Positions 1 through 40,589 of a stretch of 40,955 nucleotides of DNA are shown piece by piece. Source of the DNA: a virus; IMG/VR virus record IMGVR_UViG_3300020385_000002, positions 1-40,955 of that record; one strand, given 5' to 3'. The stretch's first letter is position 1. Every line of letters starts with the position of its first letter. A program made the position numbers and the translations under genes. The notes under the pieces were generated by a model. The model was not told the DNA's origin and ran no database searches. It saw only the letters and a program-made list of their open reading frames with translations.

Positions 1-77
1 AGATTGTGTCTCTGATTGTGTCAATTCAGCAGGAAAAGACAATCCATCTTCCCGCGCGCGATCGCGCACGCGTGTGA
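1..77. repeat. Left copy of the 77-bp terminal direct repeat
   Basis: The first 77 bases are identical to the last 77 bases of the window. The length equals a k-mer size commonly used by de Bruijn assemblers, so the simplest reading is a closed circular contig with one k-mer of overlap rather than a physical T7-type terminal repeat. The repeat contains two copies of GATTGTGTC (2-10 and 14-22, 12-bp period) and the palindrome GCGCGATCGCGC (56-67). Confidence 0.95.
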
Positions 78-1704: not shown

Positions 1705-1971
1705 TCAAGTCCTCCTCTTTCTTGCTACTACCCTCATTCGAGAGCGTCCCGTAGCCCCTTTTCTGCGATTTACACCCCGCGAAACAACCCGTAAATTTGA
1801 TCGCCCATTATTGAGCGGCTTGCCTGGGTTTCCCCCGCTCTTGTGATCGACTTCTTTGCCGTCCCCGACTCTCAATCCCAGCTTTCTGCGAGCCTGATTT
1901 CGTTGAGACCTGCGCTTTACCTGCATTGGCCTACCGTGGTATTCACGATATTCCTTCTTATAGTCACGCAT
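1705..1971 (-). CDS. HNH-endonuclease-like protein
   Basis: An 88-residue, very basic protein. The central VDHK (His43) followed by PLNNGRSNLRVVSRGVNRRKG matches the His-Asn core of small phage HNH-type nucleases (pattern VDH...NN...NLRVV...N). The final catalytic position is Asn rather than His, as in many HNN variants. AAGAGGAGACCGACAA precedes the ATG, and the start overlaps the terminase large subunit gene by 8 bases. Small HNH proteins next to terminase genes can assist DNA cleavage in packaging; a free-standing homing nuclease is the alternative. The capsid introns carry no nuclease of their own. Confidence 0.75.
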   Translation of the reverse strand: MRDYKKEYREYHGRPMQVKRRSQRNQARRKLGLRVGDGKEVDHKSGGNPGKPLNNGRSNLRVVSRGVNRRKGATGRSRMRVVARKRRT

Positions 1972-22001: not shown

Positions 22002-23637
22002 TCAGGCGTTGAACATGATTGCCCCTGCGCACCAAGGCGAGAGGACATCGTAGCCGACCAACATCTGAGCCTTCATAAACTTCCAAATATCTTCAACACT
22101 TGTCGCAAGCAAGTGTCCGTCGAACGAATCGACCGCTGTATGTCGCCATACAGTTGAGACCATATCATCATCCACATGGGATGCTCCGCGCTTCGGACTG
22201 GCTTCAGTCCTACTCCCTTTCGGGATGGTCGTTGCACGTTCCTGTCGATTGACAGGCTTCGCTCAGGATTGTCTACGAGAGATGTTCCCTGAGTTCACGG
22301 AGTTCTCACGCTGCGATTGCTCGACAGCGGACGCAAAAGTCTACGTTCCGACGTTCATCATCTTCGATGACCGTGCGGACTCCACCGGCCTGAACCATGC
22401 CGACGGCAGCAGAGCCTTCTGAGGCTCCACACATTGCAATGGCAGCACAACCTTGATCACTTCCACCAGTAGCAGAGCAGTCATAATCGTACTTAGCCAT
22501 AGTTGCCCCACCCTGGGTATTGTAATTTGCGAAAGTGCTTCCACTTGGCAAATGGGTGGTCAGGACGAGGTTAAACCCTGCAAGCGTGCCAATGACTCGT
22601 TCATTGAGCGAGCCAGCGGTGTTATTAGGGTTGTAATCTCGATTGAAGATTGTGAGATCGTGACGCAGGATCTTGCGGATATGGGGTCCGATAAACAGAT
22701 ATCGCCCATCTTCAGGGACATGATCGTCATCGAATTTTTCTGCAAGAGCATGTGCCGCGTCAACGAAAGCATTTACGCCACCAGTGGCATCAGTGAACGC
22801 TCCAGTGAGCGAGTTAGATGCTACTGCTCCAGTAACGAGCTGGCCGCCAGGATAAATCCCGTCAACGCCCGCGTTCTGTGCGGCTTTCATAGCAATCGTT
22901 GCAATCTTCTTGTCATTATCAATAGCCAATGAGCGACCCAGCTTGGTCGCGTATGGACGAATGACATCAAAGTGAGACAGATCAAGGTCTTGGAACGGAA
23001 CGTCGATAGCGGCGACGAGCATATCGTCAACGCGTACTGTCTGTTCGCTCATCTTGATCTTACGTCCGGCAATGAAATCACCGGGAACATGGTAACCAAG
23101 CTGAAGACCGCCCTCTTTACCCTCGATAGATCCGTTGCTTCCGGTATCCGTACCAATGGTTCCAAGGTCGATATCATCGCCAATGACGGGCCACTGAGCA
23201 ACGTGGCCGCCGCTCAAGACCTTTTTGGCCATGATGTTTTGCTGGTTATCATAAAAGACTGTTTTTGCTCTAAAGGCTTCGAGTACAGTCACTTGTGTTC
23301 ACGGCTGTTCGTTAGTCAACCGCCGCCGTGTGGCTGCTGCATGTCGCCATGCAGTTCAGACTATTTCTTCACCAGGTCATGGTGCTGCGCGCTTCGAGAC
23401 CACTTGGCCTCTACTCGGTTTCCCGATAGTCGTTGCACGTTCCCATAGGGCTTCGCTCAAGATTACCTCGATGAGGCTTCCCTTGAATTCACGCAGTTGT
23501 CACAGCGAGATCCCTCTCGCTGGGGGCAGTGTACTACCCGAAAAAATCTTCAAAGCAAGTTCACGAGTATCCGCACCCAAGTTACTACTCAGGGTACGGG
23601 TTGCACCAAATCCGGTGCCAGATGGGAGGTCAGGCAT
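22002..23637 (-). CDS. Major capsid protein (gp10-like), split by two group I introns
   Basis: The gene is read as join of exon 1 (23637-23536, 34 codons), exon 2 (23289-22324, 322 codons) and exon 3 (22109-22002, 35 codons plus stop), giving 391 residues. AAAGGAG lies 8 bases before the ATG at 23637. Exon 1 ends ELALKIFSG and exon 2 begins TVLEAFRAK, rebuilding the T7 gp10 segment LFLKVFGGEVLTAFART. Exon 3 restores the C-terminal KF...VGYDVLSPWCAGAIMF, matching KYAMGHGGLRPEAAGAV. Unspliced, the largest frame (23292-22306) has a false GTG start and a false ending. The intron 2 3' junction could shift by a few codons. About 160 bases upstream hold no gene. Confidence 0.92.
22110..22323 (-). 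ncRNA. Group I intron 2 (IA2, td-like) in the capsid gene
   Basis: A 214-base ORF-less intron. P1 pairs exon CGCTGT with intron GCAGCG, with a U-G pair at the 5' splice site. Core pairings: P3 CTCCGTG/CGCGGAG, P4 CTCAGG/CCTGAG, P6 CCTGTC/GACAGG, P7 GACCAT/ATGGTC, P7.1 CCC/GGG, P7.2 GGACTG/CAGTCC, P8 ATCC/GGAT, P9 CTGTATG-GCGA-CATACAG. The P7.1/P7.2 insertion defines subgroup IA. The words AATCCTGAGCGAAGCC and CAACGACCATC parallel the T4 td core. The 3' end is placed after a G at 22110, where exon CTTG can pair with intron CGAG (P10). A hairpin ACACTTG/CAAGTGT overlaps that end, so it is less certain. Confidence 0.9.
23290..23535 (-). ncRNA. Group I intron 1 (IA2, td-like) in the capsid gene
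   Basis: A 246-base ORF-less intron. Exon 1 ends TCGGGT, the same GGGT as the T4 td 5' exon, and pairs with intron GCCC through a U-G pair (P1). Other pairings: P2 GCGAGA/TCTCGC, P3 CTGCGTG/CGCGCAG, P4 TCAAG/CTTGA, P5 CCTC/GAGG, P6 CCC/GGG, P7 GACTAT/ATAGTC, P7.1 CGG/CCG, P7.2 GAGGCC/GGTCTC, P8 CACCA/TGGTG, P9 CTGCATG-GCGA-CATGCAG. The intron ends in G at 23290, and exon 2 TGTACT pairs with the intron's first bases AGTACA (P10). These joints keep the reading frame and rebuild a conserved capsid segment. Confidence 0.95.
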
Positions 23638-24208: not shown

Positions 24209-25003
24209 CTATTCAATACCTTGCATAATATGTTTAGGAGTGTTCATGAGCCGCCGTTTTGTCGCTTCGTCAAGCCTTCCAGCGTCTCGGACTTTAGCCA
24301 TTGCGGACACGAGGTCTTCTACATTCGTGAAACCAGTTGACGTATCAGGCATTCGGTCGCCTTGAATCAACTGAGTTTCAGAGCCCCTGCCCGTCTCCTG
24401 CTGGTACTCAAAGTACATTGATTGAATTGCCATGCGATAAGTATTTGGATCGTGAAGCATCTCATTTGTTCGGTCAAGGTGAGACTGATCAGTTGAATAC
24501 TTTTTGCCAAACCAATCCAAGAGACCGTCAAGCTGCTCTTTTCCTCCAACAATGTTCTCAGAATTGCTTCGCATTTGATCAACAGCATATTGGCCGTTAT
24601 CAAGCTGGGCCTTTTTGCCCATTAAGAATTCGTCGATCATCTGTCGTGAGAAATTCTGCTTACCTAGAGCCTCGTACTCGGTATCGCTCAAGCGACCGTC
24701 AGTGTTGTAGTTCGTAATAAGCTCATCAAATTTCAAGCCAGCAGCTTCTACAACGTCTTCAAGAGTAGTGGGGGGCTCTTCATTGGACTTGTTACCCATG
24801 AGCTTTTGCAGCTCTTGGTAGCTCTTCTCCAAGTCCTCTACCGAGCTAAACTTACCGTCAGCGTAAGTCCTGGCGTTGTCCTCCATTGAGGCTTCAGCAG
24901 AGTTTCCCTGGACATCAATATCAATTTCTTGCACATCTGCTTGCGCTGGAGGCGTTGAGCCCGCAGCTTGCAAACCAAACGTGGGAGAGGCTTCATCAGA
25001 CAT
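24209..25003 (-). CDS. Capsid assembly scaffolding protein (gp9-like)
   Basis: A 264-residue acidic protein placed between portal and capsid, as in T7. It has a disordered Ala/Pro/Asp-rich N-terminus, a YADGKFSSVEDLEKSYQELQKLMG motif at about residues 48-70 typical of podovirus scaffolds, a helical middle and a basic C-terminal helix-turn-helix (TNVEDLVSAMAKVRDAGRLDEATKRRLM) of the kind that binds capsid protein. CAGGAGAATGTAA precedes the ATG. It overlaps the portal gene end by 8 bases. Confidence 0.85.
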   Translation of the reverse strand: MSDEASPTFGLQAAGSTPPAQADVQEIDIDVQGNSAEASMEDNARTYADGKFSSVEDLEKSYQELQKLMGNKSNEEPPTTLEDVVEAAGLKFDELITNYNTDGRLSDTEYEALGKQNFSRQMIDEFLMGKKAQLDNGQYAVDQMRSNSENIVGGKEQLDGLLDWFGKKYSTDQSHLDRTNEMLHDPNTYRMAIQSMYFEYQQETGRGSETQLIQGDRMPDTSTGFTNVEDLVSAMAKVRDAGRLDEATKRRLMNTPKHIMQGIE

Positions 25004-26579
25004 TTACATTCTCCTGCGCAGCCTGCTGCTCGGCAATCGTACCGGCACTGGAAACCATTTGGCTGGCCGCCATAGCCTGCTGCTGTTGTTTCTGTTGCTC
25101 TTGAATTTCTCTCTTCAATTCTTCTTCTGACTTTACCAAACCCGGCTCATACAAACCTGACTGCCGCATCAGCAAATCAAGAAGGATTCCCTGATTGACT
25201 CGGCTCATTGTATCCGGACCCAGTTGAGACAGCATCTGCAACAAGCTAAGAAGTTTCTGCTGATCAGTTTCCTGGCTAATCGCATGAATTCCTGTAACCG
25301 CTTCAATCTCTACCACATCATCTGGCAGGGATGGAAGCAAGTTTTTCTTGACCATTACTTCTCTAATACGCTCAACCAGGGGAACCTGAAGCGAGTCACA
25401 AATGGGAACATACACTGCTCCAAGGCTTTGCTCTAGCTCAGAGGCCACCCTTTGAACATGCAATCGACTTGCTCTTTCATAAGTAGGAAGCTGCTCGGCC
25501 TCCATGAGCATCACCGTAGCTAGGTCTTTCCGGATAGATTCTCTGACGGAGTTAGCTACCCCGAAGTCCTGGCCTTTGTCGGCTCTTAAAAGAGCGACAT
25601 CAGTGACCTGGCCGCTCTGGACTCTTCCTTGAATGACGGAGCCGGTTGGCATTGCCAAGTCGCTTGGTCGAACCTGTGAATTGTAGTCCGTGACCATAAG
25701 CATTTTCGATGCCATTGAAGCGTGATCGAGGAGCCTCTCTGTAAGCTCGTTTATCGAGCGAACGTCTCCAAGGTTCTGCTCCACCAGCCCAATTCCATAA
25801 TTGGAACCAGTAGCCAGCTCGAATGGCGTAGACAAAAACGGAGTTATCTTTTCCTCTGTTTCGTTGATTACTTTCCCACGGCATTCCTGTTGTATCACCC
25901 ACTTCTTAGATACAGGATTCCATTCGCATCGCGTGTAAATGTCTTCCATTCGATCAACAGGGCGTTTTTCCTGAAGAGAATCGAAGTCAAGATCGCACAA
26001 AGTCAGTTGGCTTTTCTTAAGTATCAGCGGATCAATGCTCTCTTTAACAATGTGAAACATCACATCGCCAGCAGAGTCTCTTTTGGTGACATACTGATCG
26101 CGTCGAAAGACCCGAACGTCCAGCTCATCTGTGAGCTGCATAAGTACGTCGCCAGTTACAAGAAGCTGGGAGATTGCGGTGCGCATGCGCGATCTAAACC
26201 CAGCCCTTCGGGCGTTGCCGTTCCGGCTTTTATCGGCCCTGTCCAAGTGCGCCATAACCGTAAGTTCTTGCAAATGAAGACGTTGCTGGAATTCCTGCAA
26301 TGCTTCAGGAGAGACTGCTGGGTCAAACTTGAATTTCGCTGCTGGCTTGAGCCGGAAAAACGGCTGCCCAGCAGGGAAAAGCGCAACAATCAAACGCCCT
26401 TCCAGATTAGAGATTCCCCGGCTAGGGAGACTGGAAAAGCATTCTGGTAATTTGGATCCCTCAGTCCACCCGCTTGGAGGCAGAATCCAGGGTTTTGTCA
26501 GGGATGAGCAAAGCCGTGCGCGATCAAGGCTCTCCTGCCGATCTGCGTCATGCTTTGCGTAATCCGCTTGAATCTTCAT
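24996..26579 (-). CDS. Portal protein (gp8-like head-tail connector)
   Basis: A 527-residue protein matching T7 gp8 in size (536) and place. Typical features are the N-terminal RARLCSSLTKPWILPP segment, SNLEGRLIVALFPAGQPFFRL at about residues 57-77, and a Gln-rich C-terminal tail (EIQEQQKQQQQAMAASQM). It forms the dodecameric channel for DNA packaging and ejection and docks the terminase. It overlaps the small gene upstream as ATGA and the scaffold start downstream by 8 bases. Confidence 0.92.
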   Translation of the reverse strand: MKIQADYAKHDADRQESLDRARLCSSLTKPWILPPSGWTEGSKLPECFSSLPSRGISNLEGRLIVALFPAGQPFFRLKPAAKFKFDPAVSPEALQEFQQRLHLQELTVMAHLDRADKSRNGNARRAGFRSRMRTAISQLLVTGDVLMQLTDELDVRVFRRDQYVTKRDSAGDVMFHIVKESIDPLILKKSQLTLCDLDFDSLQEKRPVDRMEDIYTRCEWNPVSKKWVIQQECRGKVINETEEKITPFLSTPFELATGSNYGIGLVEQNLGDVRSINELTERLLDHASMASKMLMVTDYNSQVRPSDLAMPTGSVIQGRVQSGQVTDVALLRADKGQDFGVANSVRESIRKDLATVMLMEAEQLPTYERASRLHVQRVASELEQSLGAVYVPICDSLQVPLVERIREVMVKKNLLPSLPDDVVEIEAVTGIHAISQETDQQKLLSLLQMLSQLGPDTMSRVNQGILLDLLMRQSGLYEPGLVKSEEELKREIQEQQKQQQQAMAASQMVSSAGTIAEQQAAQENVNV

Positions 26580-26800: not shown

Positions 26801-26996
26801 CTTGATCCTCCATTTTTTTCTTAAGGTAAACAAGCTCATTCACCAGGGACCTTCGGCCCGCCTGGTAAACAAGCTCTTGTAATTTGCTTTCGTCAATCGG
26901 CCCGGAAATAACGGGGGCTGGATTTAACTGATCCAGCTCGTCAATCAACTGACTCGATGTCATTGGTAGCGTAGCCGGAAGCGTAAGTGAATCCAT
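26784..26996 (-). CDS. Small conserved-type protein upstream of portal
   Basis: A 70-residue acidic helical protein. The pattern LIDELDQLNPAPVI..., then VYQAGRRSLVNELVYLKKK, resembles a small protein that often sits before portal genes in podoviruses (LD-x-x-xP ... AG-x-RSLV-x-x-L). Its function is not known. The start at 26996 lies inside the previous gene with a weak site; Met12 (26963) is an alternative start. Confidence 0.6.
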   Translation of the reverse strand: MDSLTLPATLPMTSSQLIDELDQLNPAPVISGPIDESKLQELVYQAGRRSLVNELVYLKKKMEDQDGFSS

Positions 26997-27507
26997 TTTC
27001 AGTCATCCAAAGTAGTAACAGCTTGGGGTTCCAGCACTTACGAGGAACTGGAACACCCAGGCATTGAAGCCAGTGCCTGGTAATTGTTGTGCAATTTCGG
27101 CATTGGAACCAGCCACGCGTCATCCACATGAGGATTCTGCCAAAGGTGGCGTACCAAAGACCCGATTTCATGTTCTTGTACTGGTCCCAATCTGGCTTCA
27201 TAGGGGACTCAAAGTACACCCAGCCCATGAGATTGTGATGGCGACGGTCAAAACGGTCCATTGGTACAAACTGGATCTTGCAAAATCCAAAGTCCATAGC
27301 CTGCTCTGAGTCAGAAGGAAGGCAATGCCTGTGGCCTGATCCAGTCAGTTTCCCCGACAGCCAGGAGCCCCATAGCTGGTAGCAGACTTTTGGATGGCGG
27401 CGAATTATGCGCCACCTTTCTTTCCAGCCCCTGCCCTCGAACAAGTCGCCAAGCCGGGGGCCTTGCGTAAACAAAACTGCATATCCGTATCGCTCTCGCT
27501 GGTTCAT
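26941..27507 (-). CDS. Hypothetical protein with Cys-rich C-terminal motif
   Basis: A 188-residue Trp- and Arg-rich protein of unknown function. The C-terminal segment FQCRNCTTITRHWLQCLGVP, followed by a PKLLLLWM region, recalls a phage family with an NC-(T/V)-x-x-x-K/R-x-x-LG pattern, sometimes suggested to be papain-like because of the conserved Cys and an earlier His. A lytic or protease role is speculative. CGAGGTAGGACACGATA precedes the ATG. It lies directly after the RNA polymerase gene. Confidence 0.6.
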   Translation of the reverse strand: MNQRERYGYAVLFTQGPRLGDLFEGRGWKERWRIIRRHPKVCYQLWGSWLSGKLTGSGHRHCLPSDSEQAMDFGFCKIQFVPMDRFDRRHHNLMGWVYFESPMKPDWDQYKNMKSGLWYATFGRILMWMTRGWFQCRNCTTITRHWLQCLGVPVPRKCWNPKLLLLWMTENGFTYASGYATNDIESVD

Positions 27508-27528: not shown

Positions 27529-29955
27529 TCATGCAAAAAAGTAGGGTGCTTTCAGCACCTGGCTAAGATCCAAAGAGCCTCGCGGCGGAGGCATGGGAAG
27601 CTCAAGGCCTGGGTAGGCCTCGCTCCACTCCTCATAAGCCTGCATGGCATGGTTCACCTCATGCAGCAATATGAACTGCTCTCGAAGAGTCTGTCCAAGC
27701 TGCCCCATATTTGACAGATGAGCCCAATATGAGTCATGGACAAAGGCCGTAGTAATCCCTTGAAGCCGTGATTCAATCGCGGTAAATAAGGCATGAGCGG
27801 CATCAATCGCATGGACAAAATTTGGCGGCAGCCCTTGGATCTGCCTTCGCTTGGCGACGGGGGCATCTGTGTCACGATGGCCTAGCAAGACATCCTGTAC
27901 GATGGTCTTGATCCGGAACTTTCTCATGTTCCTGTAGGGCTGGACGATTGGAACACCTACTGGTGAAGTCCAAGAAATGGGCCTGCTGGGATCCTCTTCG
28001 CACATCATCCTGGCACAGGCCTCAAGCCACTTCATGAGATTGGTAGAAGCAGGGAACAGGTGGGCTACCTGGGCAAAGATTATTTTCGCCAGGTAATTAG
28101 CCATCTTTCTTCGCCCCTCACGGGGGTACTCGGCTTTCACTAGCTCCTCATAGACCTGGTTCTTGGCCCCAACCAGGGTCGAGTTATATTGCCTCACCAT
28201 GCAAGGCCTTTTAACAAGAGCCCTGCCCTGCTTACCCTGCAAATGAGGCAAAGCGGTCAAGGCCATGTCGCACCCCCCCCGATGCTTCAGCTCCAGCTCA
28301 TCAACCACCAGCTTCAAGGCATCCAGGTAAGGATCATGAGGCCTGTTGCTAGGCAGCATGTTGACCTTCTGAGCAGTAACCGGGTCAAGCCCAATAGCTC
28401 CATAATGCTGGTTCACATTATTAGATCCATCCACATGCCCCGGAAGGTGAGAAGCAAACTCTGGGTCGAAGATAGCCCAGCAGCAATTCATAAACTGGAA
28501 GGGCTCTTCAGCCTGGCCCCACTCATGAAATGTGTCTTCTGGATTCTGAGCCCACTCTTTAATCTGCGGAAGGTTGTCCTCAGTCCATGAAATACGATCA
28601 TCAAACGAGAGCTTGTCCTCGCCCCAATGATTGGCTGCTTGGATGTAAAGAAATTCAACGCCCTCATCTGTTACCGGAACTGATTCTGAAAACAACATGC
28701 AAGCCCTAGCCGTGTCCGGCCCGTGATGGTTTGGGCTGGTCGCCGGGATGGGGTAATGCCGTAGCCGAAAGTCAAATTGGCATGGCATGTAAATTTGATC
28801 TGAACCAAAAAACATCTCAGCAACAGACTGACGTTGCAAGAATTCAATACGAGCCCCCTTGAGCTTCGCATTAATTGTGTGAACCTCACTAGCAGCAGCC
28901 TTCCATCTTTTCAAAGAGTCAGGGTTGGTCTCAATATCAGAAGGCTTTGCTGGCATGGGAACCACATCAGGCTTAGGAACGCCTGCGCCTCCCCCGCTTT
29001 CATAAATACCCTTTTGAAGCTCAACCATTCTTTGATTGATTTTCCAGGGAGTCGCGTTGATTGCGTTCAGCCCCTCATAAAGGGTCTCTCTTTGGGAGTT
29101 ATTCAATGCCTTCCGCTGGTCACTTGTGGGCTTAGATATGAATGGGGTTCGAATCCTGACGTAGCCCCCCTCTACTTCGTCGCTCCAAGGGTACGGCGGC
29201 ACAAGCATGGGCAGGTATCGTGGTCTCATTGATTGGCGTACAAGATGCCCATCTTCAATTAGCTGCACAGACTCCTCGGCAAGCCGAATAACTCCAATGC
29301 TTCTGTTGTTTTGATAAACAAGTTTCCTTTCAAATGCTGGCAGCGGGTCATTCGTCCCATGCTGTTGAACAGTTGCCACGCTCAAAACCTTGTCAATCAG
29401 TATCGCTCCAACCTGCGTGCAAACCTTGCGGCTCCACAGCGAATCGTCCAACGTCTTCTTGGCCCACTGATTCACCTTGGTAGAAGACATCTGCTTAAAC
29501 TTTCTTTCAAGCTCTTGCAGTTTGCTGGCTTCCGGATCCGCCCGCATCGTGTCCATGTGAATCTCGGCCAGGACAGCCGACCCAATGGCATAAGACATCT
29601 TTAGAAATGTCTCTCCGCTAGGCTTAGACATGCACCTAGAAAGCATTTCGTGAACAGAAATAACTGCAAGACGTTCTGGATCTAAGTGCAACAGGACGGG
29701 GCCATAAACACCACGGCCCTTGCCAGGACTGCCGGTGTAAATAAGCCTATGTTCTTCCTTTATCGCCATCGCTAGTGCCGGGACCCAGTAAACGACAAGG
29801 CGTTCGGCTGGCTTCAATGAAGCTCCATCATCTCTGTCGATAGCATCTTGAGCGAGCCGCCTGTAACGAGCTACCCCTCTTGTAACCGCTTCGGTTTCAA
29901 GATTGATTTGCTCCTCAAGCAAAGATCCCTGGAGAACGTCCCCAACTCTCGTCAT
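27529..29955 (-). CDS. T7-like single-subunit RNA polymerase
   Basis: An 808-residue DNA-directed RNA polymerase that should transcribe late genes from phage-specific promoters. Motif A is VDGSNNVNQH with catalytic Asp509 (T7 D537). Motif B is RALVKRPCMVRQYN with Arg578, Lys582 and Tyr590 (T7 R627, K631, Y639). Motif C is FVHDSYW with Asp741 (T7 D812). The residue after the motif B Tyr is Asn, where T7 has Gly640. It is about 75 residues shorter than T7 gp1. It lies just before the structural genes, as in phiKMV-type phages. The start overlaps the nuclease stop as ATGA. Confidence 0.95.
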   Translation of the reverse strand: MTRVGDVLQGSLLEEQINLETEAVTRGVARYRRLAQDAIDRDDGASLKPAERLVVYWVPALAMAIKEEHRLIYTGSPGKGRGVYGPVLLHLDPERLAVISVHEMLSRCMSKPSGETFLKMSYAIGSAVLAEIHMDTMRADPEASKLQELERKFKQMSSTKVNQWAKKTLDDSLWSRKVCTQVGAILIDKVLSVATVQQHGTNDPLPAFERKLVYQNNRSIGVIRLAEESVQLIEDGHLVRQSMRPRYLPMLVPPYPWSDEVEGGYVRIRTPFISKPTSDQRKALNNSQRETLYEGLNAINATPWKINQRMVELQKGIYESGGGAGVPKPDVVPMPAKPSDIETNPDSLKRWKAAASEVHTINAKLKGARIEFLQRQSVAEMFFGSDQIYMPCQFDFRLRHYPIPATSPNHHGPDTARACMLFSESVPVTDEGVEFLYIQAANHWGEDKLSFDDRISWTEDNLPQIKEWAQNPEDTFHEWGQAEEPFQFMNCCWAIFDPEFASHLPGHVDGSNNVNQHYGAIGLDPVTAQKVNMLPSNRPHDPYLDALKLVVDELELKHRGGCDMALTALPHLQGKQGRALVKRPCMVRQYNSTLVGAKNQVYEELVKAEYPREGRRKMANYLAKIIFAQVAHLFPASTNLMKWLEACARMMCEEDPSRPISWTSPVGVPIVQPYRNMRKFRIKTIVQDVLLGHRDTDAPVAKRRQIQGLPPNFVHAIDAAHALFTAIESRLQGITTAFVHDSYWAHLSNMGQLGQTLREQFILLHEVNHAMQAYEEWSEAYPGLELPMPPPRGSLDLSQVLKAPYFFA

Positions 29956-30338
29956 GGCTTCATCGCCTTTGGAGTGATGGTCTCGTATTCATAAAAATCC
30001 TTGCCCCGCTTCTTCACAACAACAAGCTCTAGTCTTCCATAGGCTTCCCATAGTGTCTTGGTTGTCTTCCATTGCGGAGTTTCAAACCCCTTGACTTCGA
30101 CGTAATAAGGAAATCTCCCGTCCTCTGGAGATGGGATAACCAAGAAGTCAGGCTTGAATTTATTCTCGGGGCAACCTAAGCAATGAACAGGAACCTGGCA
30201 GTTGAACTCAGCAATAACTCCTGAGTCGAGTAGCAACTGCAATCTTTCGGCATACTCTTTTTCAGCTTTAGAATCAAATGTTCTGCCAAGAGATCGCCTC
30301 TGTTCGGACGGAGATACATTGTGTTTATTTCTTCTCAT
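29952..30338 (-). CDS. PD-(D/E)xK endonuclease (DUF1064-type)
   Basis: A 128-residue nuclease. TFDSKAEKEYAERL (Glu26), KPDFLVI (Asp64) and YYVEVKGFET (Glu81, Lys83) form the PD-(D/E)xK core in the layout of DUF1064 phage proteins. It contains two additional Cys residues (HCLGC). Such proteins are thought to be Holliday-junction or structure-specific endonucleases; in T7 the gp3 resolvase fills this role. GAAGGGGTGGT precedes the ATG. Confidence 0.85.
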   Translation of the reverse strand: MRRNKHNVSPSEQRRSLGRTFDSKAEKEYAERLQLLLDSGVIAEFNCQVPVHCLGCPENKFKPDFLVIPSPEDGRFPYYVEVKGFETPQWKTTKTLWEAYGRLELVVVKKRGKDFYEYETITPKAMKP

Positions 30339-30664
30339 ACCACCCCTTCATTCCAAATCTCATCCGCCCACTTGAACTGATCTTCCTTAGCCTCTTCTTC
30401 TCCGTCGCCCATGTACTTATCGTGAACCCATTGCCTAACGTGAATAAGCTCATGAGCAATGGTCGCTATGAAGTTTCGAAGAGACTGGTCTTCAGCCACA
30501 GAAATGCAATATGTATTTCTCTTTGTGTCATGAGGCCAAGCCATGCCCCAACAACCAAGCTCATTAGAAGTTGAAATGTGCATTTCGATCTTGCAATGCA
30601 ATCCCATTTTCAACTGCAAGTAAGCCAAGCACCTGCGAGAAATGTCATGAGTAGTCTCAGGCAT
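30335..30664 (-). CDS. SprT-like zinc metallopeptidase-fold protein
   Basis: A 109-residue protein. IAHELIHVRQW contains a clear HExxH zinc motif (His71, Glu72, His75), followed by GEEEAKEDQFKWADEIW, which could supply the third ligand. The size and order fit small SprT/WSS1-like zincins in phage replication modules. The start at 30664 follows AGAGAGGAGCCCTTGT and overlaps the primase stop; the longer open frame upstream lies in primase sequence. Proteolysis of DNA-bound proteins is a possible role, inferred from relatives. Confidence 0.75.
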   Translation of the reverse strand: MPETTHDISRRCLAYLQLKMGLHCKIEMHISTSNELGCWGMAWPHDTKRNTYCISVAEDQSLRNFIATIAHELIHVRQWVHDKYMGDGEEEAKEDQFKWADEIWNEGVV

Positions 30665-31511
30665 ACAAGGGCTCCTCTCTAAGCAAAGACTGGAAGTCAT
30701 CCGGAGTCGCACCCTGTTTCACCCACTCTCTAATATCCTTTGCTGGCGGAACTATTACCTTTGCGGTATTACTGATCCCTTGAAGCCGGTCTATAAGATG
30801 CTTTGCGCCGTTTTGGCCAGGCGGATCATGGTCCGCAACAACAACAACATCCTGATTAACGCACAGTTTTTCGATAATTGTTACACCGCCAAGGCAGTTG
30901 CTTCTTCCTAGAACTTTGTAAAGACCTAGAGCCAGGAGAGCTGCTGTATCTGTAGGCCCTTCTGCTATGTAAACAGGACCCGGCAGTTTTGAAATAGGGT
31001 TCAGTGTTGCAAACAATCCGTCAGAAGAACCACGGACAGCCCTTTTCTCGCCAGCTTTAGACCTGGTTCTGATACCAACAACCTTCAGAGTTTCGTCATA
31101 CATAGGAAATGTCCAAGCCTCCAACCCTTTGTGCCAACCGATCCCAAGCATGAAAAGATGCCGACCTTTTAAGCCAAGCCGTTTAGCCAGGCGGTCCCTC
31201 TCTTCGTGCATGTCCATTCCATTCGCTAGGTATTCGGCCTGGACGTTGTTGAAGTTTGAGAGTTTGAACTCTTTTGCAGGGGGGGAAATTTTTCTCGGGA
31301 CAAAACTTCCGCCAGGCACATCCTCTTCTCGTCTAAAAACAGTTGCATTCCCAGGCTCTCTAGGATCGTCGGCTGGCCGGACAACCCGATATCCAGTTTT
31401 CGCAATTACTCGCTTGCACCTGTGGGCTCCGTCTTCCGTGTAGCCGCACCAATCCGGTTTCCCGCAAATCTCACAAGGCCGACCAGGTTTAACATCTCTC
31501 CATGTAGTCAC
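30657..31511 (-). CDS. DNA primase (zinc finger plus TOPRIM)
   Basis: A 284-residue primase. The N-terminal zinc-binding motif is CEICGKPDWC...C (Cys13, 16, 21 and about 30). The TOPRIM domain has VYIAEGPTDTAALLALG (catalytic Glu) and VVVADHDPPGQNGAKHL (Asp-x-Asp). There is no fused helicase domain, unlike T7 gp4. The helicase is a separate SF2-type gene two positions upstream. The GTG start has GGAGGACTC upstream. Confidence 0.9.
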   Translation of the reverse strand: MTTWRDVKPGRPCEICGKPDWCGYTEDGAHRCKRVIAKTGYRVVRPADDPREPGNATVFRREEDVPGGSFVPRKISPPAKEFKLSNFNNVQAEYLANGMDMHEERDRLAKRLGLKGRHLFMLGIGWHKGLEAWTFPMYDETLKVVGIRTRSKAGEKRAVRGSSDGLFATLNPISKLPGPVYIAEGPTDTAALLALGLYKVLGRSNCLGGVTIIEKLCVNQDVVVVADHDPPGQNGAKHLIDRLQGISNTAKVIVPPAKDIREWVKQGATPDDFQSLLREEPLYA

Positions 31512-31825
31512 GAGTCCTCCAAGCTGGCTTGCTCGGCCTCTCGTGCAGCGGTCATGACCTCTTCTGAATGCTCGTCAAGAAAGCAATCAAACCACTCAAG
31601 ACCTTCAAGATCAATCTTGTGTTCAGTCTCGCTGTATGGTGAGTAGATTGTGATCTGGCAATTAAAGCCTGTCACATTCAAAGAGTCAGGGTCGCATGGG
31701 ATGTATCTCCCGTCCCCTCCCTTCCCGACAATGTAATCAGCATCAACATCACAGGAAACAAAGGTATGAAACTCAGTGTTTCCAATCTTTATCAGGAACT
31801 CATCTTTTTCGATTGTAAAACTCAT
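31508..31825 (-). CDS. Hypothetical acidic protein in replication module
   Basis: A 105-residue acidic protein, beta-rich in the first 80 residues (EFLIKIGNTEFHTFVSCDVDADYIVG) and ending in an acidic helix. AAGAGGAGATTCAG precedes the ATG. It is coupled by 4-base overlaps to helicase upstream and primase downstream, so a replication-related role is likely, but no family is recognised. Confidence 0.7.
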   Translation of the reverse strand: MSFTIEKDEFLIKIGNTEFHTFVSCDVDADYIVGKGGDGRYIPCDPDSLNVTGFNCQITIYSPYSETEHKIDLEGLEWFDCFLDEHSEEVMTAAREAEQASLEDS

Positions 31826-33465
31826 CTGAATCTCCTCTTGAAACCAGAATTCGCAAGCTGTTGCAAATACTTGCTCGCTTGCTCTCGTGTCAGTGACTTA
31901 GCAGACAGCTTGGCTCTACGAAGAGCCTGCTCTTGGAAAATCGTCCAAAGTCCTTCTTTGTCCCGCCGTCTAATCTCACGGATAACTTGCTGGGCTTCAG
32001 CCTTAGTCATCTCGCCGCCGTCAATCCGGCCATCAGTGCTTTTAGCAAGCCATTCGCACTGCTCAAGAGTCGATCTGCCATCGTCTTCAAGAAAAACATC
32101 TGGCCCAAGATCACAACGATCAAACGGGTTAATTTTCCGCGTCTTGTATTTAGCTCTAGCAACCAGGCCAGCTCGTCGGCACTTCTCTCGCTCTTCAGCT
32201 TCAATTCGAGCCTGCTCAATTAACTCATCCGGGTCAACAGCTTCGCCTTCGATGTTTTCTTCAGATAGCTCGCGGGCCAAGTCCATAACTTCACCAGGGA
32301 GAGTCCCCCCTAAGATGTCGCCAACCCAAATCAGCTTGTGCTTTCCAGCGTTGCCGTGGAAATCAATAATCTCGCAATGAGTTTTCCTAGATCCCTGTAT
32401 GGCAGCTTTTCTTTGGCTAGGGGTCTCTTCCTGATCCACTAAGCCGGGCAAAGGCCGGAGGCCACGCCCAACCGCTTGGGCATACCAGGATCGAGACAAA
32501 GTTTTCCTCCCCAAGATGATGCACTCAGCTTCAGGGCAATCAAACCCCTCGACAGCAACATTTACATTCACCAGAACCTGAAATTCACGGCTCTTGTAAG
32601 TGTCAAAAATTATTCGGCGTTCATCTTTTGGGGTTGTGCCATCAACGTACCTTGCACAATTCTCCTTGTTTCGATTGAATATCTCAGTAACACGTTTCCC
32701 CTGATCCCGGTTCGCAGCGTAAAAGATGGCCTGCCTATCCCCGATTAGCTCCAGGGAAGGCGAGACCATCTTGTGCATGATCTTCTCTTTACCAAGGATT
32801 TCCCTCAAACCCTTAGAAGAAAGATCACCTCTGTTTCTACGGACATTTGTGTAGTCTAAATCTTCAACATAGACAGTCCGTTGACGTATCGGAACAAGCC
32901 ACCCACCATCAATGGCTTGCCGAATGTTCATTTCATAAGAAACTTCGTCGTATGAAACAGCTAAAGAACCACCACTATCACGATCCAACCTGTCAGGCGT
33001 AGCTGTTACGCCAAGAGTTTTATGAGACGGATTCTTTCTCAAATGCTCCAGCACTGTTTGGTATTCTTGCGCAGGAACATGGTGAGCCTCGTCAACAATA
33101 GATAAAACCCACTGATCCGGATCTTTAACTAATCTTTGTAGCCGAGCGCAACCGTTCCTTGCTAACGATTGGACCGTCGCAACAACGACGCGAGGAGCCC
33201 ACAACGCACCAGATACCTTCCAATCCGCCATTTCGATACCGACTTCTTTAGAAGTGACATGGCGTAAAGTGTTGGCAAGCTGATGAATCAGCTCCTCTCT
33301 GTGTGCAATAACAAGTATCTTGCCCTGGGGAAACCTGTTGACCAGGTGAGCTAAAGTTACGGTCTTACCGAGCCCCGTCGCCATCACCATTAAAAGCCCG
33401 TTGTTCTCCTCAAACTTCTCAACAGTCGCTTCTAATGCCTCTTCTTGATATGGGCGCAGTTTCAT
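31822..33465 (-). CDS. Superfamily 2 DNA helicase
   Basis: A 547-residue helicase of the DEAD/DEAH-type SF2 fold. Motif I is MATGLGKT (28-35), motif II DEAH (125-128), motif III TATP (154-157) and motif VI QAVGRGLR in the C-terminal RecA domain, after VAVEGFDCPEAECI (motif V). The N-terminal LRPYQEEAL is the Q-type motif of UvsW/RecQ-like and type III restriction-like helicases. The last 150 residues are a charged extension, perhaps for substrate binding. It may unwind D-loops or forks. GAGGGGAGCAGTACAG precedes the ATG. Confidence 0.92.
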   Translation of the reverse strand: MKLRPYQEEALEATVEKFEENNGLLMVMATGLGKTVTLAHLVNRFPQGKILVIAHREELIHQLANTLRHVTSKEVGIEMADWKVSGALWAPRVVVATVQSLARNGCARLQRLVKDPDQWVLSIVDEAHHVPAQEYQTVLEHLRKNPSHKTLGVTATPDRLDRDSGGSLAVSYDEVSYEMNIRQAIDGGWLVPIRQRTVYVEDLDYTNVRRNRGDLSSKGLREILGKEKIMHKMVSPSLELIGDRQAIFYAANRDQGKRVTEIFNRNKENCARYVDGTTPKDERRIIFDTYKSREFQVLVNVNVAVEGFDCPEAECIILGRKTLSRSWYAQAVGRGLRPLPGLVDQEETPSQRKAAIQGSRKTHCEIIDFHGNAGKHKLIWVGDILGGTLPGEVMDLARELSEENIEGEAVDPDELIEQARIEAEEREKCRRAGLVARAKYKTRKINPFDRCDLGPDVFLEDDGRSTLEQCEWLAKSTDGRIDGGEMTKAEAQQVIREIRRRDKEGLWTIFQEQALRRAKLSAKSLTREQASKYLQQLANSGFKRRFR

Positions 33466-34130
33466 CTGTACTGCTCCCCTCTGGCATCAAACAGCTCTTG
33501 AGTAACCCACCCAATGCCTTCACACAAATGGCACTGCGACTGCCTGCCGAAACACTCAGGGCATGGAACTGTTGGTATGGACTTGTTGATCAATGCCGCC
33601 AGCGACTTAATATGCCCCTGAGCCTCGTTGATATACAAGTGTCGGCCTGGTCCGGAATGTAAACTATTCAGCCGCTTGCCAATTTGCTTAACTTCAAAGA
33701 CCAGGGCTTGAAACTCAGACTTGTCCGGGGGCTCAAACGTCGTAGGCTTAGGCCGCAGCTCCTCATGAACATCCTGAATCATGGGGGCTGTAACCTTTTC
33801 GATTCCCCCTTGACGTTCAGAAGCTATGGCTAAAACCTCACTTCTTTGATCTTCCGGTACATCGCTTAATTTCAAAGCTGCTCGCAAGCTGGGGACATCA
33901 TGTTCCTGCTTAATCTCAGCAGCTTTCAACAGGTTGTAACCCTGTCGCCAGCCCGTCTCAATCTCAGACTCCATGTAATCCTTAAGTGTGCCGTAACCGC
34001 CTTCTCGAAACAGCTCGTTGTCTCGTATTTCAATCAAAGCCTTGCCAGCTTCAAAGAAACCTGAGAGCCCCCGCTTAACTGTTTCATTGAGGCGACGGAA
34101 CGCGTCCTTGCGTTCGATCTGACCATCCAT
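33462..34130 (-). CDS. Protein with C-terminal DnaJ-like zinc finger
   Basis: A 222-residue protein. The N-terminal half (GFFEAGKALIEIRDNELFREGGYGTLKDYMESEIETGWRQ) resembles the FxxGxxLxxIRDxxLYR...TFxxYCxxxWG domain found in phage and plasmid DNA-associated proteins. The C-terminus has CPECFGRQSQCHLCEGIGW, a four-Cys zinc motif like DnaJ repeats. DNA binding is likely, function unknown. It is coupled to the helicase gene by a 4-base overlap. Confidence 0.75.
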   Translation of the reverse strand: MDGQIERKDAFRRLNETVKRGLSGFFEAGKALIEIRDNELFREGGYGTLKDYMESEIETGWRQGYNLLKAAEIKQEHDVPSLRAALKLSDVPEDQRSEVLAIASERQGGIEKVTAPMIQDVHEELRPKPTTFEPPDKSEFQALVFEVKQIGKRLNSLHSGPGRHLYINEAQGHIKSLAALINKSIPTVPCPECFGRQSQCHLCEGIGWVTQELFDARGEQYR

Positions 34131-34141
34131 GCCAACCCCCG

Positions 34142-34705
34142 CTATTCCTTTGGCAAACCGCCAATTTTGATATTCATTTTCTGTGATGCTGGAACGATTC
34201 GGATTCCATCCGGCTCCTCGCCCGTGCCTAACGTAGACTCTGTACCCAGGACATACTCTTTGATCGGAGTCTTTCGCAGAGATTTAGTAATGCGAACAGC
34301 GTCTTCTAATTCCCTAGCAATGTCTTCAGGCTGCTGGTCTAGCCAACTGAAAAAACTTTCATCATCAACCACTTCAACAGTTTCCTTAGTGTCTAGCACC
34401 TGGTAGGAAGCGTGATCGGTATGCACGGTCTTTACCCTGCCGCCGTTTTCGTGAATCATCTGGGAGACCAGGGCCTGAACCTGTGAGTTAAAATGGTATT
34501 TAAGAGCAGCGATCTTGCGATCAATAACACTGACCTGCTTTTGGATCTGTATCTGCATGTTCTTTTTGCAGAATTCCAACCCACTTAGCTCTTTTCCGTA
34601 CCAGTTTAGAAGGCTCTTGGGGTTACCAACATGGATAACACCTTCCTCAACTAATTCTTGAATCTCGATCTCTTCTTGCTGCTCTTGTGTGATTTGTTCA
34701 GTCAC
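34142..34705 (-). CDS. Gp157/Gam-like recombination accessory protein
   Basis: A 187-residue protein. A long coiled coil (about residues 40-85) is followed by HASYQVLDTKETVEVVDDESFFSWL and TPIKEYVL...PDGIRIVPASQKMNIKIG. This layout is shared by Siphovirus Gp157-like and Mu Gam-like proteins, which often lie next to annealing proteins; Gam-type proteins protect DNA ends from host nucleases. The GTG start has GAGGAGGTGGACGC upstream and overlaps the ERF gene stop. Confidence 0.75.
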   Translation of the reverse strand: MTEQITQEQQEEIEIQELVEEGVIHVGNPKSLLNWYGKELSGLEFCKKNMQIQIQKQVSVIDRKIAALKYHFNSQVQALVSQMIHENGGRVKTVHTDHASYQVLDTKETVEVVDDESFFSWLDQQPEDIARELEDAVRITKSLRKTPIKEYVLGTESTLGTGEEPDGIRIVPASQKMNIKIGGLPKE

Positions 34706-35697
34706 GCGTCCACCTCCTCGGCAGCAACCAGGTCAGCCATCATTTGATCTGCAAGGCTTTCCCTGGGCGCAATTTCAATCTTGTCGAAATCATTCGCGCT
34801 TACCCCTTCAATGACATAATCGCCATCCTTCCAATGCTGATGAACAAACGGTTGCCCCGCTGGCCAATTTTCATCAGGCCTTTCAGTGTTGCGAGTCCAT
34901 GAGATAATCACTTCCCCGTTGTTGGGCTCTTGCACTGCCTCATCAACTAGCTTGATCGTGTCTTTGCAGAATGTCTTTATCTCAGCTCCGCTTGAAGTAG
35001 TAATCACCCAGAGCTGCCAGCCATCTGGCTTCTTCTTATCTTTGGCAATCATCTTGTGATCTACAATGATGAAGCTGTCTCGACCTCGCAGTGTGCCTGC
35101 TGGGCCGGGATCGCCGTAGAAATCTCCTGAAGAAGCTGACCCAGTAGCGGGCGGGGTTTGCCTCTCTTCCGAGGCCCCGCTAACAGGGCCAGTCTTCTTC
35201 TTTGGAGTAGCGGCCTTTTTAGGAGCCGCTTTCTTGCTGATCTTCGGAGCGGAGGAGCGTGTCCGATTCTCAGCTTTTTCCTGATGCGCAAACTCAGCGG
35301 AGTCATCGCCTCCCCTGGGCAGGTTTAATGCTCCCACAATAGCAAACTTTGCAGCATAAGAATACATTGAGCCGCACTGTTGAACCAGCGGTTGGCGACC
35401 CCCAGGAGATTCAATAACTTCGCAATAAACGGATTCCCGTTCACCGCTTGGGCCATAGTTCAAAGATCCTTCAACCCGGAATTTCATCTTTCCAGATTCA
35501 AGCTCTTGAACGGTTGCCCTGGGCAAGGAGAAAGAAAGCCCGGTTCCGTCAAGCGCGTCGTTTGCTACTTCTCTTACTTGCTCTACTGAAGTGCTTTGCC
35601 ATGCCCCAGCGTCAATGGTTTTTGCTACATGCTTGCGATCAATAGAAGCCAATGCTTCAAGCAATGGTGATGGTGTAAGTGTCTGTTCTGCGTCCAT
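34702..35697 (-). CDS. ERF-family single-strand annealing protein
   Basis: A 331-residue protein. The ERF core ends in QCGSMYSYAAKFAIVGALNLPRGGDDSA (about residues 105-135), matching the SxYxxxYxLxxxLxxxxxxDDDA signature. A basic Lys/Ala/Pro linker follows, then a second domain (FIIVDHKMIAKDKK...WQLWVITTSSGAEIKTFCKDT) that looks like an OB-type beta barrel. ERF proteins anneal complementary single strands and help circularise or recombine phage DNA. The start at 35697 has AAAGGAAAGG upstream; the longer frame does not. Confidence 0.85.
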   Translation of the reverse strand: MDAEQTLTPSPLLEALASIDRKHVAKTIDAGAWQSTSVEQVREVANDALDGTGLSFSLPRATVQELESGKMKFRVEGSLNYGPSGERESVYCEVIESPGGRQPLVQQCGSMYSYAAKFAIVGALNLPRGGDDSAEFAHQEKAENRTRSSAPKISKKAAPKKAATPKKKTGPVSGASEERQTPPATGSASSGDFYGDPGPAGTLRGRDSFIIVDHKMIAKDKKKPDGWQLWVITTSSGAEIKTFCKDTIKLVDEAVQEPNNGEVIISWTRNTERPDENWPAGQPFVHQHWKDGDYVIEGVSANDFDKIEIAPRESLADQMMADLVAAEEVDA

Positions 35698-35714: not shown

Positions 35715-36102
35715 TGTGTCTTCGATTGTCTTTGCGCAACTACTGCGTGCCTTCCCGTGTAAAACGATTAGGCCTTGTTATGACTTGAGCTTTCTGTGTC
35801 CTGGCCTGAGCTAACAGAACCCCACAAGCTCACGGAATAGTCCCCCTGACCAAACCGACACAGCTCTGTGTCCGAATTGTGCTGCTTTGTGTCTGAAAGC
35901 CTGGATGACTTCCAATTTCTAGTTAGCCGAGCCACAATATCTTGTATACGATTCATGCCGAACCCCTTGTTTTCGTATCGACATTGGGCCAATCAAATTG
36001 TCAGAGCCTGTACCGCCCATTGCGATATGCTCTTTTCCTGTACCCAATGACCACTTTACTATCATTTTTTGTAGCTCTGTGTCAAGCGAGCTATTGTGTG
36101 TC
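35715..36102. repeat. Cluster of GACACA/TGTGTC repeats around the integrase 3' end
   Basis: The plus-strand hexamer TGTGTC occurs at 35715, 35795, 35867, 35888, 36078 and 36097. An opposing GACACA at 35857 forms a 7+2+7 inverted repeat GACACAGCTCTGTGTC (35857-35872). On the minus strand the consensus is GACACARAGC. The sites lie in the last part of the integrase gene, the following short gene and the gap beyond. Integrase arm-type sites or operators are the leading ideas; a partial duplication of coding sequence explains some copies. Confidence 0.6.
35768..35956 (-). CDS. Short hypothetical protein overlapping the integrase end
   Basis: A 62-residue Ser/Asp/Gln-rich protein. AAGGGGTTCGGC precedes the ATG at 35956, and it overlaps the integrase gene by 38 bases. 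The middle (SDTKQHNSDTELC) resembles the integrase tail (GTKTHNSSLDTELQ), and the underlying DNA is similar too, so this may have arisen by duplication of the integrase 3' end. It could equally be a non-coding attachment region with an open frame. Confidence 0.45.
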   Translation of the reverse strand: MNRIQDIVARLTRNWKSSRLSDTKQHNSDTELCRFGQGDYSVSLWGSVSSGQDTESSSHNKA

Positions 36103-37232
36103 TTTGTGCCACACACTTTTTCCAGGTCGTAATCTGAGATCGTGTCGTAATGCTTGTCCTGTACAGCCTTAGAATGCCCTGTCCATTGGGCGATGACAAA
36201 CCCATCATGCCCCTGTTGCCTCCAGGTCGTAATCCTAGACTTGCGTAACATCATGAAGGTAAAGGGCTCAACCCCAGCTTTCTTCTGAGCATTTTTCAGC
36301 TCCCTGGTAATAGAAGATCCATGAACCCTATTGCCTTCAACCAAACCACAAACAGTTTTGTCCTGCATAGCCGTGTCCCAGGGCATAAGGCCCCGGTCGT
36401 TATCGGGTCTCGCATAGCCTAAAGCCTGCTCGTGTAAGATTTTGGCAGTCGCTTTTCTCATAAACTCACGCGATATAGGACAAATTCTTTCCCTTGTCTT
36501 CCTCTTAGGAATGAGGGCTTGAGGATACTTCTCGTCAATTATGTGCATGTCTCTCCACTTTTGGTGCAATGCCTCCCCGGTCCTCATGCCAAGCTCGTAA
36601 CAAAGGAGAAGCATCCAGCCCACGCCTGGAGAACAAAATGACACAACGCGATCAACCTCATTGGCAGAGATGACCCTTCGAATGACGTTCTTTGTTTCTG
36701 GATTTGATTTCAAATGTTCAAAATTGTGTGCAGCAATCAGATCGTGCTTTTTCGCAAAATTGAAAATGGTTTTAACTGCACGAACTTGGTTGCAGACCGT
36801 GGCTTCCACAAGAGGTTTTTCCCTGGATCCGCGAGATGACTGAGATGGCAGCCAAAGCTCAAACAATGTGGCCTCTTCAGCAGTAATCGACTCAATAGCC
36901 CGGCTTGCTGTAAATCGCTGGATGAGCCTGGAAAAAGCTCTCTTATGTATAAACGTGGTCCCCTTGGCCTGATTCGCTTTCAAAGCGAAGTATCTATCAT
37001 GCCACTGCCCAAGAGTGAGCTGCCTGGTAATCGTTGAACGTACAGGCTCCCTGGCATGGTCGGCAATCAACCGACGCATAAACGCGTCCGCCTGGCGTTT
37101 AGTTGCAGATCCTCCGCAATCATTACGCTTCCCTAGCTCTCGACCTAATGACTTCCCCCGCTTTTTGCCCTGGATGTCAGTCCATCGAACGATCCAATAA
37201 TCGCCGTGTTTCGCAACTATATAATTTTTCAT
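35919..37232 (-). CDS. int: Tyrosine recombinase / integrase
   Basis: A 437-residue integrase. The start is the ATG at 37230-37232, with AGGATTTGAAA upstream. There is an N-terminal arm-type domain (about 1-65), a core-binding domain (about 70-170, LTLGQWHDRYF...) and a catalytic domain with Arg217 (GMRTGEAL), Arg333 in LRKSR, His353 in WTGHS and nucleophile Tyr362 in KHYDT. The His of the usual HxxR box is Arg330, a substitution seen in some active members. About 75 residues extend beyond Tyr362. It implies lysogeny, uncommon but known among T7-like podoviruses. No attP core was identified. Confidence 0.92.
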   Translation of the reverse strand: MKNYIVAKHGDYWIVRWTDIQGKKRGKSLGRELGKRNDCGGSATKRQADAFMRRLIADHAREPVRSTITRQLTLGQWHDRYFALKANQAKGTTFIHKRAFSRLIQRFTASRAIESITAEEATLFELWLPSQSSRGSREKPLVEATVCNQVRAVKTIFNFAKKHDLIAAHNFEHLKSNPETKNVIRRVISANEVDRVVSFCSPGVGWMLLLCYELGMRTGEALHQKWRDMHIIDEKYPQALIPKRKTRERICPISREFMRKATAKILHEQALGYARPDNDRGLMPWDTAMQDKTVCGLVEGNRVHGSSITRELKNAQKKAGVEPFTFMMLRKSRITTWRQQGHDGFVIAQWTGHSKAVQDKHYDTISDYDLEKVCGTKTHNSSLDTELQKMIVKWSLGTGKEHIAMGGTGSDNLIGPMSIRKQGVRHESYTRYCGSAN

Positions 37233-37262
37233 TTTCAAATCCTGGTAGGTAATTCAAATCCG
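37233..37262 (-). promoter_or_regulatory. Integrase leader with ACCTACCAGGA ribosome site
   Basis: The untranslated stretch before the integrase start contains TTACCTACCAGGATTTGAAA. It resembles the CAACTACCAAGGAG leader found before other early genes (38122, 38706, 39564 and 40578), with the AGGA acting as ribosome binding site. It supports the ATG at 37232 over the in-frame TTG at 37238. Confidence 0.5.
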
Positions 37263-37917: not shown

Positions 37918-38114
37918 GATTGGCTCTCAATCTTTACGCCAAGCTGAACCTGTGACCCATTCATACAAACGTGGTCAATCTCTGAACATTCGCCGCGATT
38001 CTGACCCTCAAATTCTACAAAGACGAAACACCTGCCCGCCAACATGCCCATAAGCCGACACAAATCATCGTTTGTCATTTGGTTTGCAATCTGAACAATC
38101 TTATCGGTATCCAT
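37914..38114 (-). CDS. Hypothetical early protein
   Basis: A 66-residue protein: a short helical N-terminus (KIVQIANQMTNDDLCRLMGMLAG) and a beta-type C-terminus (CFVFVEFEGQNRGECSEIDHVCMNGSQVQLGV). ACTACCAAGGAGATACGAA precedes the ATG, one of the repeated early leaders. Function unknown. Confidence 0.65.
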   Translation of the reverse strand: MDTDKIVQIANQMTNDDLCRLMGMLAGRCFVFVEFEGQNRGECSEIDHVCMNGSQVQLGVKIESQS

Positions 38115-38121
38115 TTCGTAT

Positions 38122-38149
38122 CTCCTTGGTAGTGTTAAAGATGACTATC
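38122..38149 (-). promoter_or_regulatory. Repeated early-gene leader, copy A
   Basis: On the minus strand GATAGTCATC (38149-38140), 6 bases, then ACTACCAAGGAG (38133-38122) precede the gene at 38114. The same two blocks in the same order, 7 bases apart, precede the gene starting at 38698. AAGGAG is the ribosome binding site. GATAGT could be a -10 element, but no convincing -35 was found. Confidence 0.55.
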
Positions 38150-38698: not shown

Positions 38699-38705
38699 TC
38701 TGTAT

Positions 38706-38749
38706 CTCCTTGGTAGTTGTTGCGGATGACTATCACAATGCCCATTGTG
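38706..38749 (-). promoter_or_regulatory. Repeated early-gene leader, copy B, with palindrome
   Basis: On the minus strand GATAGTCATC (38734-38725), 7 bases, then ACTACCAAGGAG (38717-38706) precede the gene at 38698. Immediately upstream lies a perfect 7+2+7 inverted repeat CACAATGCCCATTGTG (38734-38749). It overlaps the last codons of the previous gene, so it could be an operator or a chance product of coding sequence. Confidence 0.5.
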
Positions 38750-40569: not shown

Positions 40570-40577
40570 TGTCGTAG

Positions 40578-40589
40578 CTCCTTGGTAGT
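40578..40589 (-). promoter_or_regulatory. Repeated early-gene leader, copy C
   Basis: ACTACCAAGGAG (40589-40578, minus strand) lies 8 bases before the ArdC ATG and is identical to copies A and B. The wider match is CAACAACTACCAAGGAG. It fixes the ArdC start and belongs to the family of leaders shared by early genes. Confidence 0.7.

Follow-up and report, generated by a model that had tools for sequence, protein, structure and literature searches.

How does a phage with the virion and the RNA polymerase of T7 copy its DNA when it encodes no DNA polymerase? The textbook example of a self-sufficient phage is T7, whose replisome consists of four proteins. Its replication genes (DNA polymerase, primase-helicase, single-stranded-DNA-binding protein (SSB), endonuclease and exonuclease) lie between the genes for its RNA polymerase and its portal. 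The question is raised by IMG/VR virus record IMGVR_UViG_3300020385_000002, a single record that makes up the whole 40,955-nt stretch analyzed here (the window), and by the replication module at its positions 29952-35697. An earlier reading of the window made from the letters alone (the sequence-only reading) had pictured a chimera, in which a T7 virion and RNA polymerase are joined to a lambdoid-like recombination set that depends on a host polymerase. In this work, we reach a similar view: the window is likely to be a complete, probably temperate T7-type phage of an uncultured PolA-less clade, with the host replicase and a recombination-type module in place of the T7 replisome. The chimera fits all the findings described below, including the layout of Pseudomonas phage PS-1, and no polymerase profile matched.

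The known DNA polymerase families (A, B, C and primase-polymerase) are absent from the window. A six-frame motif search of the closed circle returned no full motif set of family A, B, C or Y, and the profiles PF00476 (family A), PF03175 and PF00136 (family B) and PF07733 (family C) had zero matches in the record; as positive controls, PF00476 recovered PolA in MedDCM-OCT-S28-C10 and Mycobacterium phage jiawei (E=1e-49 and 6e-34 in these two). Motif searches of the window for primase-polymerases and HUH-Rep proteins found none, the primase-polymerase pattern having recovered its own control in the relative L090, and neither an NrS-1-like primase-polymerase domain nor a match to the T7-type primase-helicase profile was found in the window. 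Nothing polymerase-like emerged from Pfam searches of the large proteins of the virion region or of the small early genes. The sequence-only reading had seen no polymerase in the genome; the motif search and the four profiles, with working family A controls, bear this out, and the observation that would have contradicted it, a profile match to a polymerase in any gene, was looked for and did not occur.

The protein encoded at 33462-34130, which that reading had singled out for checking, contains a lone VHEEL string that resembles motif C of family A polymerases; motifs A and B are absent. The alignment of its 11 homologues shows an invariant cysteine cluster, its AlphaFold model is all-helical (predicted local distance difference test (pLDDT), 88.6), and its best Foldseek matches are Spo0J/ParB (4umk, probability 0.93) and Noc (0.84), both weak with E above 0.1. 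Longer ParB-like proteins occupy the same slot in the relatives L011 (phrog_1033, 2e-16) and L178 (related to that of L011). The homologue alignment, the structure model and the fold search together rule out that this protein is a polymerase.

As a phage genome, with a T7-type virion and RNA polymerase, the window is complete. Its ends carry an exact direct repeat (Table 1) which, as 77 nt is a usual assembly word length, is possibly an assembly overlap rather than a true end repeat; either way the ends overlap, and therefore there is no gap where a polymerase could be missing. Terminase, portal, scaffold, capsid, tail tubes and RNA polymerase form a full T7-type set; the virion genes and the terminase stand in the order of the T7 group (Autographiviridae/-virales), and the catalytic positions of the RNA polymerase (D509, K582, Y590 and H740-D741) are conserved. 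Two usual, though not universal, traits of that group, a family A polymerase and a bifunctional primase-helicase, are not found in the window. The replication-module genes are all open and all on the minus strand, with an integrase at the start of the module, and the phage is probably temperate.

Table 1 Features of the window discussed in the text, with positions, strand and supporting matches.
Feature	Position	Strand	Evidence or remark
Direct terminal repeat, exact	1..77, copy 40879-40955		closed circle 40,878 bp
Terminase large subunit	1964..3694	-	phrog_38 3e-98
Major capsid protein	22306..23292	-	phrog_267 9e-27
T7-type portal (head-tail connector)	24996..26579	-	phrog_449 2e-90
188-aa Cys/His protein	26941..27507	-	sole gene left between RNA polymerase and portal region
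T7-type single-subunit RNA polymerase	27529..29955	-	PF00940 8e-98, PF14700 2e-44, phrog_414 3e-169
DUF1064 PD-(D/E)XK nuclease, resolvase-like	29952..30338	-	PF06356 2.9e-4, phrog_190 resolvase 1e-14
Small metallopeptidase-like protein	30335..30712	-	PF06114 E=0.012, PF10263 0.05, weak
Stand-alone zinc-binding and TOPRIM primase	30657..31511	-	phrog_47 1e-10, Toprim_2 2e-4
105-aa protein between helicase and primase	31508..31825	-	no convincing family match
RadD-type superfamily 2 (SF2) helicase	31822..33465	-	ResIII 2.4e-31; PDB 6jde (RadD) profile E=1.3e-62
ParB-like helical DNA-binding protein, C-terminal zinc ribbon	33462..34130	-	222 aa; alignment and model
Gam-like protein, positional counterpart of Gp157	34142..34705	-	alone: phrog_491 Mu-Gam E=0.089, weak
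ERF-type single-strand annealing protein	34702..35697	-	phrog_155 9e-7, PF04404 1e-4
Tyrosine integrase, module start	35919..37238	-	phrog_1 E=5e-30, PF00589 E=3e-10

Profile matches also bear out the gene list of the sequence-only reading (primase, SF2 helicase, ERF, Gp157/Gam-like protein and DUF1064 nuclease), those of ERF and Gam being weak when each protein is taken alone. The helicase profile is far closer to RadD than to the next SF2 family (5e-30). The likeness to Escherichia coli RadD lies in the helicase core (profile positions 2-338 of 6jde) and stops short of the C-terminal part, and E. coli RadD is a cellular repair protein, which speeds RecA strand exchange in a RecA-dependent way, shows no helicase activity of its own on branched DNA (PMC8887467) and interacts with SSB (PMC10238739). 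The primase profile matched the T7 gp4 primase (1nui/6n7i, E=3e-4) and DnaG (1dd9, 5e-4), its AlphaFold model (pLDDT 90.7) retrieved 1dde (4.5e-9) and 6n9x (1e-8) in Foldseek, and profile, model and fold search thus agree on a predicted primase of the T7 gp4/DnaG type. A PD-(D/E)XK pattern, E...PDF...(E/D)VKG, is clearly recognizable in the 128-aa nuclease and is kept in four members. The window ERF protein scores 22.8 bits with PF04404, under the curated cut-off of 25, and its counterpart in L011 scores 36.1 bits. The Gam-like protein aligns with those of two relatives at 27% identity, and the proteins that occupy its position in other relatives are true Gp157 proteins (PF05565, 1.5e-30).

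Single-protein queries with the RNA polymerase or the helicase retrieved nothing from the viral contigs, whereas profile queries succeeded: relatives were recovered by profile scans with the primase, helicase and nuclease together with a survey, a first RNA-polymerase profile scan having given L010-L012. About 40 metagenomic virus records, some of them on contigs that are near-duplicates of each other, carry the module adjoining RNA polymerase and portal, although short contigs hold just a part of the module. The recurrent set comprises, wholly or partly, integrase, a single-stranded DNA annealer (ERF, or Sak4 with an exonuclease), Gam or Gp157, a ParB-like protein, the RadD-type SF2 helicase, a T7-DnaG-type primase, the DUF1064 nuclease, RNA polymerase and portal. 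Identity of the relatives to the window reaches 54% in the RNA polymerase, several relatives measure 36-44 kb, and one of them, G054, is closed through a repeat of 111 nt; its gene order is that of the window, and it has no PolA. At record level PF00476 was negative in all 42 relatives and positive in the four controls, and no PolA was found in the locus of any relative that has both RNA polymerase and module. Among named phages (50,697 records), neither the window primase nor its ERF protein had a match, and a DNA-level search for the module gave none either.

Helicase, primase and nuclease are kept while the annealer slot switches between unrelated families: ERF in the window, L011, L194, L217 and L359, Sak4 (AAA_24) with a PD-(D/E)XK exonuclease in L178, and 317-327-aa proteins of phrog_19042 (no assigned function) in G024 and G054. 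That unrelated annealers are swapped and the remaining genes kept suggests that strand annealing is a needed, retained recombination function. Both the annealer-slot protein of G024 (L397:2871-3848) and the SSB of L011 (L011:928-1590) terminate in DIPF, and in this they resemble the tail through which SSB recruits host replication proteins; the window ERF protein has no such ending. In two contigs of a same virus, L201 and L202 (also L366), the helicase-primase-nuclease module and a T7-type portal are present with no RNA polymerase between the nuclease and the 188-aa gene; since the contig is 13 kb, the RNA polymerase could lie elsewhere.

In an RNA-polymerase tree of 100 sequences, 37 module genomes plus L090 and L091 lie on one side of a branch with a Shimodaira-Hasegawa-like approximate likelihood-ratio test (SH-aLRT) value of 99.9, and all 48 PolA-bearing genomes lie on the opposite side. 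An earlier tree of 160 rows gave the same small clade at 100, with separate polymerase-free lineages in sphingomonad and Brevundimonas genomes. The claim that the T7 group normally encodes a DNA polymerase holds as a rule (89 of the 118 RNA-polymerase loci with enough flank); its exceptions include the MPP-C cyanopodoviruses (PMC9860041), and these further lineages also lead us to reject the idea that every T7-type genome has one. Sphingomonad loci L095, L099, L103, L125, L128 and L139 include a T7-type RNA polymerase; a phage-type PolA was not found within 10 kb, and no T7 portal was recognized. A search of four of these genomes in their entirety gave only one full-length Pol I, and L125 is on a contig titled plasmid. 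L116 (Brevundimonas), L039 and L017 form another polymerase-free T7-type lineage, in which the RNA polymerase lies about 1-1.5 kb before the portal with no replication block between.

In the closest phages that do encode a polymerase, the PolA gene lies in the interval from RNA polymerase to portal. MedDCM-OCT-S28-C10 and jiawei share the order integrase, RNA polymerase, small DNA-metabolism genes, primase(-helicase), DNA polymerase, nuclease genes and portal, whereas in the window a different module fills the interval between integrase and RNA polymerase, and the interval between RNA polymerase and portal region holds the 188-aa gene alone. The gene orders argue that the whole T7 replication block is replaced, rather than one gene lost. 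Since the tree is unrooted, it does not separate loss of the polymerase from its ancestral absence. The polymerase-free state might be the older one, a T7 virion and RNA polymerase having first joined a host-replicase recombination module in temperate phages and the T7 replisome having been acquired later on the other side; this is compatible with two replication types flanking one branch of an unrooted tree, although we regard it as rather unlikely.

Polymerase-free T7-type phages were already known. The MPP-C cyanopodoviruses (Prochlorococcus phage P-SCSP1a and kin) have, like the window, a T7-type virion and T7 RNA polymerase and no identifiable DNA polymerase (PMC9860041). In contrast to the window, their interval from RNA polymerase to portal still contains endonuclease I, primase/helicase and exonuclease, all of which the window lacks, and the window has its other module upstream of the RNA polymerase. 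They were rejected as the parent group: their portal is distant (30%) and their replication genes differ; they are not in the tree. LUZ100, vB_PaeM-G11, Rhizobium TRX32-1, MedDCM-OCT-S28-C10 and jiawei, all temperate Autographiviridae, combine integrase, T7-type RNA polymerase and virion as the window does, but encode a DNA polymerase according to annotation or paper. What is new here is the wholesale replacement of the replisome, and our literature search found no paper describing the present clade.

The same helicase family occurs in Streptococcus phages, next to a gene whose annotation is replicative helicase; outside these phages, the annotated match that spans most of the helicase was that of PS-1. 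This phage has an SF2 helicase of the same family (27% identity over 94%) directly followed by a primase, together with recombinase genes, and the annotation of the 25.4 kb shown includes no phage polymerase. Its layout is lambdoid, with helicase-primase behind CI/Cro and ahead of NinB and RusA; it differs in its lambda-style Bet/exonuclease and in the lack of an annotated T7 RNA polymerase in the region. The module of the window has the lambdoid-type combination of helicase and primase with an annealing protein, a resolvase and no phage polymerase.

With its own polymerase absent and the replication machine swapped, the phage must borrow a host DNA polymerase. Most likely this is the host replicase, probably Pol III, acting with recombination-linked fork building, which would fit a RadD-type motor that adjoins an annealer, an end-binding-like protein, a resolvase-like nuclease and a primase. 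In the sequence of steps that we infer, the ParB-like zinc protein would bind phage DNA, the ERF protein would anneal single strands, the Gam-like protein would manage ends, and the RadD-type motor would power strand exchange or branch migration; the DUF1064 nuclease would resolve junctions, the primase would start strands, copying of the DNA would fall to host DnaB together with the replicase of the host (most likely Pol III), and the phage RNA polymerase would transcribe late genes.

Several points weigh against this proposal. First, the window yielded neither a replicative helicase of the RecA/DnaB fold nor a loader for one, nor any named initiator, which leaves the loading of host DnaB unexplained; the lambda O and P families had no match among the proteins scanned in general library scans, no search with dedicated O/P profiles having been made. 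In addition, the ERF and Gam assignments depend on weak single-protein scores, and the family B and C profiles covered only a few relatives. Besides, the clade may not uniformly lack polymerase activity, as L090, a clade member from a Planctomycetota metagenome-assembled genome (MAG), carries at 6744-9197 a primase-polymerase domain related to that of phage NrS-1 (PF22763, E=7e-28), with motifs that look intact; an SNF2-type helicase and this primase-polymerase stand there in place of the RadD-type motor and the TOPRIM primase. Finally, the sequence does not discriminate Pol III from Pol I.

Recruitment of host DNA polymerase I, a family A enzyme akin to T7 polymerase, with the phage primase and RadD-like motor working around it, is in our judgment improbable. 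It was proposed as one option for the MPP-C phages, and a full-length Pol I gene is present in the Planctomycetota genome from which L090 comes; however, Pol I is chiefly a repair enzyme (PMC9860041), it would find no T7-type helicase partner because the entire T7 replisome is gone and not the polymerase alone, and a PS-1-type lambdoid helicase-primase module exists without an annotated phage polymerase nearby. We give very little credence to a highly divergent polymerase hidden in an unassigned protein: the 720-, 698- and 2027-aa proteins and the small early ones had no convincing family match, and the MPP-C authors likewise could not exclude one in their phages (PMC9860041), but the 720- and 2027-aa genes sit at the T7 gp15/gp16 places behind tail tube B, the 698-aa protein has a weak lectin-like domain, no motif set was found, the sole module gene of unclear fold models as helical and ParB-like, and the primase is DnaG-like. 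A reading in which the polymerase was lost by decay, the window being a defective element, a satellite or a chimera of the assembly, is hardly credible, even for a genome known from a metagenomic contig alone with a repeat that may be an assembly overlap, given its open module genes, a gene order shared by about 40 records, a second closed genome among them, and a full virion and terminase set.

As to the host, the only hint comes from the two MAG contigs L090 and L091 and points to Planctomycetota; these contigs may be free phage binned with the MAG; a primase search of 392 Planctomycetota genomes gave 19 matches, and none of the seven fetched regions had phage context. Homologues of the 188-aa protein occur in both contigs, and its H61 and C139 are invariant in 16 sequences; it is reminiscent of NlpC/P60-type enzymes and retained across much of the clade. 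The window also encodes, at 39583-40737, an ArdC-type antirestriction protein with an MPTase-PolyVal domain (PF08401 3e-31, PF18818 4e-38), with relatives in G024 and G060. Leaders of the ACTACCAAGGAG type, an extended ribosome-binding site, recur ahead of early-gene starts (38110-38133, 38694-38717 and 40566-40589). Around the capsid gene lie two exact copies of GGAACGTGCAACGACNAT (22225-22242 and 23426-23443, minus strand; 0.13 expected by chance), each followed by a small GAAA-loop stem whose pairs differ in both arms (CCC-GAAA-GGG and CGG-GAAA-CCG); they are candidate promoters of the phage RNA polymerase with a 5' mRNA hairpin.

Altogether, a deep and widespread clade that keeps T7 transcription and virion while depending on the host replicase would mean that, in T7-type phages, replication forms a module that can be separated from those for transcription and the virion. 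Surveys keyed to phage polA miss this clade. With the defined gene set of its members, one can ask by what route the host replisome is captured when a phage has no polymerase of its own, no replicative helicase and no known loader.

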